This document shows positions 4,510-48,863 of a stretch of DNA of 64,000 bases, in pieces; the first letter of the stretch is position 1; each line of letters opens with the position of its first letter. The position numbers and the translations under genes are program-made. Below the pieces are notes generated by a model. It saw only the letters and a program-made list of their open reading frames with translations, made no database searches and was not told where the DNA came from. Source of the DNA: Methanomassiliicoccales archaeon LGM-DZ1 (lineage in GTDB: Archaea > Thermoplasmatota > Thermoplasmata > Methanomassiliicoccales > Methanomethylophilaceae); assembly GCA_030168595.1 (NCBI GenBank), contig CP115556.1, forward strand, positions 1-64,000, written 5' to 3'.

Positions 4510-4628
4510 GCTGACCCCCTCTGCGGCCATCTTGCCCATACCCAGAGCCAAAACCTCTTAAAAAGTTGTTGCATGGGTCAGCCTAAATGTTCGTGCGCAC
4601 GCACATTTTATAGGTGCGTCGCTATGGG

Positions 4629-43665: not shown

Positions 43666-44445
43666 ATGCCGACCTACATCATCACCGATCTGAAGATCGA
43701 GGACATCTGCGAGTAGTCATGCAGGATGGAGCATAAGCCTTTCAAGGAGTTTTACCGCATCGGGCCGCTTGTGTTCATGCATCGTTCCTTCACCAAAGAA
43801 GACCTGTTGTCAAGATCCTACGACAGGGTCGATTTCGGCGCGGACCCTGAGGGGCTCAACTTCTACCAGTGCGGCATCGTGACCACGATAGAAGGCAGGC
43901 TCCGCAGCGATTTCCTCACATGTATGTACGACAGCCCTTTCCTGGTCCCGTTCGTCTGCTGGTATCTCCGTCACGGAAGCTTCATCGCCGTCCATCAATA
44001 CGAGACGGGCTGGCATCCCCATTTCCATCCGGTCATCAGGACTGCCGTCTCCCCCGCCGGGACGAAGGAGATCTCGTACTGGTCCCTGGACATGGACGGC
44101 ATCTTCATGTTCCGCTCCCAGGGAGGCACCTACGAACCGATGGCGCATCTGTTCGACGAGCTGCGCAGCGACCGCCCCGAGTACATCGAAGGGCATGTCT
44201 GGATGTTCCCGAGGGAGAAGACCGATGTGAAGGGCCTCATAGGGAGGATCGGGCCTGTGGACGATCCGATACTGATAGAGAGCATCCCTCCTTCGGATGA
44301 TAGTCTGAACCGGCGCGTGCGGCATCCCGATAACATAGATGACCTCGGCGAAGTGGTGAAATACAGGCTGGCATTCTCGGACAGGCTGCCGGACGGAGAT
44401 AGGTTCGGCCATATACTGCCGTTCCTGAGCGTCTGGCTGAGATGA
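43666..44445 (+). CDS. Unrecognised paralogous family, member 3, with in-frame amber codon
   Basis: 260 codons counting an in-frame TAG at codon 17 (43714-43716). The 5' part reads MPTYIITDLKIEDICE, then TAG, SCRMEHKPFKEFYR, and lines up with member 1 (MSTFIITDRKMESLCE, SSYM), so the amber sits at a Ser position. The remainder keeps FGADPEGLNFYQCG, HQYETGWHPHFHP and MDGIFMFRSQGGTYEPMAHLFDEL. If TAG is read as pyrrolysine the protein is full length. Otherwise translation would begin at 43726 and lose the conserved N-terminus. A sequencing error or recent mutation is also possible. Confidence 0.65.
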
Positions 44446-47053: not shown

Positions 47054-47731
47054 TCAGAGGCCCGACGCGAGGTCGGAGAGGGCGGCATGCCAATCGGCCG
47101 CTTTGACGACGCCGCTGGCGATGAGGACGCCGTCGGCGCCCAGCTCGATCGCTTTCGAGACATCCTTTCCGTTCTTGACGCCGGCCCCGCAGAGGACGCG
47201 CACCCCGCGTCCTGCGTCAGCGACGGCCTCGACGGTGCCGGAGACTATCGCCGGGTCCGCCGTGGTGACGCTGATGTCCCCGCCGATGAGCTCGGGCGGC
47301 TCGACAGCGACGTAGTCGGGGGAGAGGGCGGCCATGGCGGCCGCTTCCCTGACGTCGGCGGCGCATACACAGGTCATGAGGCCTGCCTGCTTGGCCGCGG
47401 AGACGATCCTCCCGGCGGCGTCCGCCGGCACCCTGTGCTCCGAATGGTTGATCAGGGTCCCGGCCGCTCCGGCCGCCTTCACCATGGGGGCGGTGACCCA
47501 ACCGGTCGCCGACCCGGGTGCGCGGTCGTCGAGGCTCTGGGAGAACACGGGTATGTCCACCGAGCGGGCCACGGCCTGCAGAGAGACCATCGGAGGGCAG
47601 ACGGCGATGAGGGCGCCGGTCTCCTCGGAGACCTGCTGGCACATCTGCGCCAGCCGGACAGCGCCCTCCCCGTCGACCTGCGGGTAGGCCTTGAAGTTGA
47701 CTGCTATGACGTGCTTGCCCGTCTCAGTCAA
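47054..47731 (-). CDS. tpiA: Triosephosphate isomerase
   Basis: 225 residues, the shorter archaeal form. Interconverts glyceraldehyde-3-phosphate and DHAP. Catalytic landmarks are NFKAY (Asn, Lys), INHSEHR (His) and VEPPELIG (Glu), with the phosphate loop CGAGVKNGKDV. The start is a TTG at 47731 that overlaps the fbp stop (TTGA), so it is coupled to fbp, the next step in gluconeogenesis. The sequence near 47713-47731 offers no closer ATG. Confidence 0.93.
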   Translation of the reverse strand: MTETGKHVIAVNFKAYPQVDGEGAVRLAQMCQQVSEETGALIAVCPPMVSLQAVARSVDIPVFSQSLDDRAPGSATGWVTAPMVKAAGAAGTLINHSEHRVPADAAGRIVSAAKQAGLMTCVCAADVREAAAMAALSPDYVAVEPPELIGGDISVTTADPAIVSGTVEAVADAGRGVRVLCGAGVKNGKDVSKAIELGADGVLIASGVVKAADWHAALSDLASGL

Positions 47732-48863
47732 GAGGCTCGAACCTCTTCTTGAGGTCCTCGAGGACCTGGGGCCTGGAGGTGTACTCCATCTCCTCGGCTC
47801 CGAGGATCGAGGGCTGGAAGGGTCCCTGGCTCCTGATGAGCTTGCAGGCGCGCATGGCGTCGGCTCTGACGGTGTCCCAGGTGGAGTTGCCGAAGAAGTC
47901 GACGGGCTTGTGCTCGCCGCCCTTGGCTCCCTCGGGCTCGAGGCCCTGGAGGTGGCCGTTGTTCAGCTGGAACCCGAGAGCGCAGATTCTCGGAGGCCCG
48001 TCGAAGTAGACGGGGTTGCTCTCCTCGGGAGAGCAGGGGTAGAACGCACCGATGTGCGATCCCCTCATCCATCCGGCGACCAGCCAGGTGTTGTTGAAGA
48101 CCTGGGTGTACTCACCGACGGAGGGGAACCCGCTCTGGCACCTGCAGATGCAGACGGGGTCGTCCTTGCCGACGTACCTGCCGGCGGTCATGTTGAGCTT
48201 GTCGGTGGAGACGACGCAGGCGGGGCCGAGGCCGGCCCTGCTGCAGATCCTCTTGATGGCGTACCTGGAGGTGTCGCCCAGGAGGCTCAGGATGCTGAGG
48301 GTCTCCTCGGGGGAGGACATGACGACCTTCTTGTGGTCCATGACGTCCTGGATTTCCACATCGAATCCCATCTTGGCCCTCTTGTCGATGACGAGGCCGG
48401 TGGTGGTGAAAGGGTCGAGGAAGATCCTCGAGAGTATGGGAGAATAGGCGGAGGGCTCGGTCTTGTCCGCCATGAAGAACAGGAGGGGCTCGGAGGGCCT
48501 CTCCTCGAAGGTCATCTCGGCGGATCCGGGTCCGGCGCCCTTGACATTGCCGGAGAAAGCATCGGTGAGGATATCCTGACCGGCGGCGTAGAGGTGCATG
48601 CGCTTGGAGATCTTGGTCGCTTCCTGGAAGCACTCCCAGGCCGCGGTGTGGACCTCTTTGTTGCCCTCGCCCTTATAGTGGGTCATGTAGAGGTTGATGT
48701 CGTCGCCGACGCGGGTGACGTAGAAGTCCTCGATGATGCCCTGCTTCTGTTTGTCTGTCAGGATGTCTTTGGCGGCCTGCTACATCGCCGGGTGCGGGGC
48801 CATGTGGCCGCAGACGGATCCGATGTCGGCTTTGATAATGGATACAGTGACTTTGTCAGTCAT
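47724..48863 (-). CDS. fbp: Fructose-1,6-bisphosphate aldolase/phosphatase with in-frame amber codon
   Basis: 380 codons, including an in-frame TAG at codon 28 (48780-48782). This bifunctional archaeal enzyme condenses triose phosphates and removes phosphate in gluconeogenesis. Before the amber: VSIIKADIGSVCGH and PHPAM. After it: QAAKDIL, YVTRVGDDINLYMTH, AAGQDILTDAFSGNVKGAGP, ERPSEPLLFFMADKTEP, KYVGKDDPV, WMRGSHIG and FDGPPRICALGFQ. Known homologs align without a gap; the amber falls where they have a residue after HPDT (Met in Sulfolobus). An internal start at the later Met would lose the metal-binding Asp13, His20 and Asp54/55. GGTGA lies 5 nt before ATG 48863, with a TATA-like CTATTTAATG further up. 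Pyrrolysine insertion is inferred; mutation or sequencing error cannot be excluded. Confidence 0.88.

Follow-up and report, generated by a model that had tools for sequence, protein, structure and literature searches.

The fbp locus and its in-frame TAG

The window, a stretch of 64,000 nucleotides comprising positions 1 to 64,000 of contig CP115556.1 of Methanomassiliicoccales archaeon LGM-DZ1, contains a gene for a fructose-1,6-bisphosphate aldolase/phosphatase (Fbp) and, next to it, the gene of an archaeal triose-phosphate isomerase (Table 1). The frame of fbp, read from 48863 to 47724, shows a single interruption, a TAG at codon 28 that is preceded by MTDKVTVSIIKADIGSVCGHMAPHPAM; apart from this codon the gene is intact and carries no other lesion. 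The read-through protein matches the Pfam profile FBPase_3 (PF01950) from position 1 to 361 of 361 with 526 bits, far above the cut-off, and the NCBIfam equivalog NF041126 end to end with 473.9 bits, which is below the cut-off of 520. An alignment with the solved Fbp proteins of T. neutrophilus and S. tokodaii passes codon 28 without a gap and lines up Asp54-Asp55 with the crystal-structure proteins. Asp13 and His20 are invariant across 79 distinct relatives and, like Asp54-Asp55, are presumably metal- and substrate-binding residues. The original prediction of an in-frame amber codon in an otherwise full archaeal Fbp agrees with the frame, the PF01950 match and the gap-free alignment. It had also considered a second intact copy; a profile search of the complete genome finds neither a second fbp nor any other member of the Fbp family, which confirms the gene as single copy. 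The 5' end of tpiA overlaps the 3' end of fbp by 8 bases. Because of this overlap, the arrangement suggests one operon of fbp and tpiA, apparently devoted to sugar synthesis and led by fbp.

Table 1. Features of the fbp locus, in window coordinates
Feature	Position	Strand	Basis or remark
fbp, fructose-1,6-bisphosphate aldolase/phosphatase; 379 codons, 1 in-frame TAG	47724..48863	-	Frame reading, Pfam/NCBIfam profiles and alignment
In-frame TAG, fbp codon 28	48780..48782	-	ATG in 1R26
fbp codons 1-27, upstream of the TAG, with invariant Asp13 and His20	48783..48863	-	
Sole sizeable restart ORF after the TAG, from codon 60; 320 aa	47724..48686	-	ORF list
tpiA, archaeal triose-phosphate isomerase; TTG start	47054..47731	-	NF003302 and TIGR00419, above cut-off

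Codon 28 in strain 1R26 and in the family

The genome, a member of the Methanomethylophilaceae, consists of one contig of 1,768,094 bases and is 99.68% complete. Among public genomes, the one closest to it is that of 'Candidatus Methanomethylophilus' sp. 1R26, a bovine-rumen strain of the same species with 99% identity across fbp and its flanks and 96.6% identity across the about 607 kb covered by the genome-wide comparisons. Codon 28 of fbp is ATG in 1R26, and AT in place of TA is the only difference within the first 62 codons. Other members of the genus, including relatives similar to ISO4-H5, carry either ATG or CTG there. Matches to fbp occur in 91 of 102 family genomes, with an internal stop in the present genome only, and none of 110 fbp loci aligned across codon 28 contains a stop. 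Position 28 of the 79 distinct relatives is occupied by Met (41), Leu (33), Ile (4), or Val (1). The earlier statement that the amber replaces one ordinary residue holds insofar as a single residue is replaced without a gap; a position that is always aliphatic is, however, not merely ordinary.

The alignment of fbp from related strains that had been proposed with the original prediction finds the TAG nowhere else. Such a lack of conservation speaks against Pyl28 having a conserved role, and not against decoding. Because 1R26 has ATG and the relatives encode Met, Leu, Ile, or Val, the TAG is, judged from these alignments, a recent and strain-private change that followed the split from 1R26. Downstream of the TAG, the two strains differ at 23 synonymous and 3 nonsynonymous sites (dN, 0.0037; dS, 0.104; Nei-Gojobori). 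Between the strains, fbp is under strongly purifying selection with a dN/dS ratio of about 0.04, a value which reflects both branches and does not separate out the period after the TAG appeared. Mid-gene stops that differ between the strains are TAG in 7 of 7 cases, with an expected TAG share of 0.66 (p about 0.05); this weak bias, drawn from a small count, was rejected as proof of a sense TAG, since TAG is already expected to be the commonest new stop.

The main rival explanation, which is unlikely, holds that the TAG arose from faulty sequencing or assembly and that the true codon is the ATG seen in 1R26. The isolation of the AT/TA difference within the first 62 codons and the absence of the TAG from every relative are compatible with such an error, whereas an AT-to-TA swap outside a homopolymer would be an unusual consensus error, and the assembly is a single contig with a completeness of 99.7%. 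The step from ATG to TAG is a two-base change, and runs of two mismatches are common between the strains, with 1407 runs compared to 16281 single mismatches. Most frame-breaking gaps in coding sequence are bases missing from 1R26 (262, compared to 56 in the other direction), as expected because the 1R26 data are from Ion Torrent sequencing. The apparent frameshifts of 1R26 were not accepted as real, being mostly Ion Torrent deletions.

Pyrrolysine machinery and TAG use across the genome

All of the pyl genes that the original prediction proposed to look for are present. pylS, pylC, and pylD are clustered near genome positions 1703798-1706702, pylB lies apart from them at 663137-664192, and all four exceed curated cut-offs. 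The tRNA gene pylT, 71 nt in length with a CTCTAAA anticodon loop, is located just upstream of pylS at about 1703697-1703767; it was called by sequence inspection, and ARAGORN did not list it. mtmB, mtbB, and mttB contain one TAG apiece within a full-length family match, and full-length MtmB sequences across the family, serving as a positive control, nearly all show exactly one TAG. The products of these genes resemble Fbp in that the TAG would be read as pyrrolysine by the same machinery, but in the methyltransferases pyrrolysine is conserved and catalytic, whereas in Fbp it would be strain-private and replace Met.

A separate observation concerns pylC of 1R26 (L221:11072-12151; G012:C11), the counterpart of genome positions 1704790-1705872. 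Codon 82 of the gene call is an in-frame TAG in this Ion Torrent draft and GAG in the present genome, and the 1R26 copy is the only one with a stop among the matches listed, about 80 full-length pylC copies of the family. Such a gene would mean that a pyrrolysine-making enzyme itself needs pyrrolysine.

Gene calls from a simple dicodon model, used instead of a standard annotator, comprise 1638 genes, of which 1463 terminate with TGA, 139 with TAA, and 36 (about 2%) with TAG. Among well-scored genes, coding sequence continues past the stop in 12 of 21 cases for TAG, compared to 142 of 1234 for TGA and 7 of 99 for TAA. Twenty of the 36 TAG-ended calls continue in coding phase and 16 do not; in about these 16 genes, TAG termination may persist. 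Continuation in coding phase was abandoned as a sole criterion, since TGA also scores at operon junctions, and the spanning of the codon by a domain was used instead. A single Pfam domain crosses the TAG in fbp, TiaS, a sugar epimerase, a helicase, a family 2 glycosyltransferase (GT2), and a PCC protein, whereas none of 10 comparable TGA junctions is crossed in this way. Several calls of a sense TAG, among them those at 4587, 42444, 488521, and 415630, were discarded as probable N-terminal over-extensions, with domains that begin after the TAG.

The TAG at codon 69 of the gene for TiaS, the tRNA-Ile2 agmatidine synthetase (genome 1115726-1117066; L057:15726-17066), is common to the present genome and 1R26 (L255), two independent assemblies, and is absent from other members of the genus among the matches listed. 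Downstream of this TAG, tiaS is under constraint between the strains (dN, 0.0099; dS, 0.0569; dN/dS, about 0.17).

Further frames with TAG were observed elsewhere in the genome. A giant frame of 3984 codons at 148152-160106 (L009-L010) contains two in-frame TAGs and shows a strong coding signal on both sides. Transposase-like genes with an in-frame TAG lie at 419049-420251, 1523959-1525161, 332455-333843, and 548614-549159, two of them with identical segment lengths and scores; a host able to decode TAG may be a requirement of the mobile elements in this genome. A pair of near-identical paralogues of unknown function, at window positions 43666-44445 and genome positions 628382-629161, shares a TAG at codon 17 that may lie upstream of the true start, and the latter has a further TAG at codon 219.

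Kivenson et al. reportedly described in Science in 2025 an archaeal 'Pyl code' in which every TAG is read as pyrrolysine, backed by proteomics; the present genome may differ from such archaea in a few genes for which TAG could still be the terminator. In 'Ca. Methanomethylophilus alvus', in which TAG accounts for 1.6% of terminators, 16 nonmethyltransferase genes with an internal TAG were predicted to encode Pyl proteins, and half of these have TAG-free homologues in relatives (PMC4153887). This organism is similar to the present case in its family, its internal TAGs outside the methyltransferases, and its very low TAG termination; it differs in that Fbp is not in its list and that here a TAG-free strain of the same species dates the change. 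The same comparison of the order from 2014 held that pyrrolysine is essential on account of the amber codons present in major genes (PMC4153887). ISO4-H5, like the present strain a rumen member of the order with amber codons in central metabolism, has them in frame in 46 genes, including those for adenylate kinase and phosphoglucose/phosphomannose isomerase, with no Fbp case in the text of the paper (PMC5011839). The original prediction had described pyrrolysine as known mainly from methylamine methyltransferases, which is not borne out for this order by the two studies (PMC4153887, PMC5011839) and by roughly 15 further candidates in the present genome. A search of the available literature found no published Fbp with an in-frame amber codon. 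The fbp gene is a new and strain-private instance of a phenomenon, in-frame amber codons outside methyltransferases and also in central metabolism, that is already on record.

Probable decoding of the fbp TAG and its significance

The reading of fbp as a functional gene, with the TAG decoded as pyrrolysine and Met28Pyl as a recent and tolerated product of drift, is probably correct. With the pyl machinery complete, the original prediction of pyrrolysine at this codon is well supported and is the best interpretation. PylBCD would make pyrrolysine and PylS would charge tRNA-Pyl (anticodon CUA), which would then decode codon 28 to yield full-length Fbp in which Pyl28 takes the place of Met28, close to where the first helix begins. 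As TAG seems almost unused as a terminator in the lineage, a mutation to TAG would be no knockout and could drift into a single-copy central enzyme, as the change from ATG in fbp would have done after the split from 1R26. The insertion of pyrrolysine, its efficiency, and the activity of the Pyl28 enzyme are what we infer from sequence. The bulky residue could be costly at an always-aliphatic position, and, as TAG may remain the terminator of about 16 genes, termination at codon 28 of fbp is possible as a competing outcome.

Judged from gene content, Fbp is probably needed by the cell, because neither a class II FBP aldolase nor a type I FBPase is found in the genome and the sole DeoC-family protein is the ADH synthase of the shikimate pathway. 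The latter adjoins 3-dehydroquinate synthase II and scores 193.7 against the model for class I FBP aldolase, compared to a cut-off of 430. The genome also encodes three proteins of the inositol-phosphatase family, one of them fused to an NAD kinase. Members of this family in archaea can show FBPase activity, and the three proteins could supply some of it, though not the aldolase step. It is very unlikely that fbp is a young pseudogene or that its loss is tolerated by means of a DeoC-type aldolase combined with inositol-phosphatase-like FBPases, or of imported sugars. The three inositol-phosphatase-family genes would fit such a backup, but the identity of the DeoC protein and the absence of the class II aldolase and the type I FBPase oppose it; the overlap of fbp with tpiA, the lack of any other lesion, and the retention of fbp by all complete genera of the family are likewise at odds with a pseudogene.

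The TAG could also be seen as a regulatory switch by which full Fbp is made only when pyrrolysine is plentiful, as during growth on methylamines, so that sugar synthesis is coupled to methylamine supply. A single-copy enzyme, an early TAG, and a complete pyl machinery would suit this role, which is nevertheless highly improbable, as the TAG is private to the strain, absent even from 1R26, and TAGs are scattered across unrelated genes as drift predicts. A tolerated, near-neutral substitution is likelier than regulation by pyrrolysine supply because of this strain-private and scattered occurrence and the plain Met or Leu of the relatives. Termination at the TAG with a restart at codon 60, the first ATG, GTG, or TTG downstream, to give a shortened but useful protein has next to no probability: an ORF for it exists, but the product would lack the invariant Asp13 and His20 as well as Asp54 and Asp55, and the N-terminal codons are intact and identical to those of 1R26. 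The same loss of residues supports the earlier claim that readthrough would be needed for an active enzyme.

The earlier proposal that sugar synthesis is tied to pyrrolysine supply would follow only if pyrrolysine were ever limiting; the strain-private TAG points to drift. It is unlikely that the sole gluconeogenic aldolase/phosphatase has come to rely on pyrrolysine so far that hexose can be made only when pyrrolysine, and with it lysine and methylamine-linked expression of the pyl genes, is available, and that Pyl28 measurably affects Fbp or methylamine-free growth. Automatic annotation would mis-start fbp at codon 60 or label the gene as broken. On the reading as tolerated drift, fbp would be a clean and dated example of how TAG, where it stands for an amino acid, can drift into a single-copy gene of importance, and the strain pair would offer a natural comparison of Met28 and Pyl28 by which to gauge the fitness cost of placing pyrrolysine in an ordinary enzyme.
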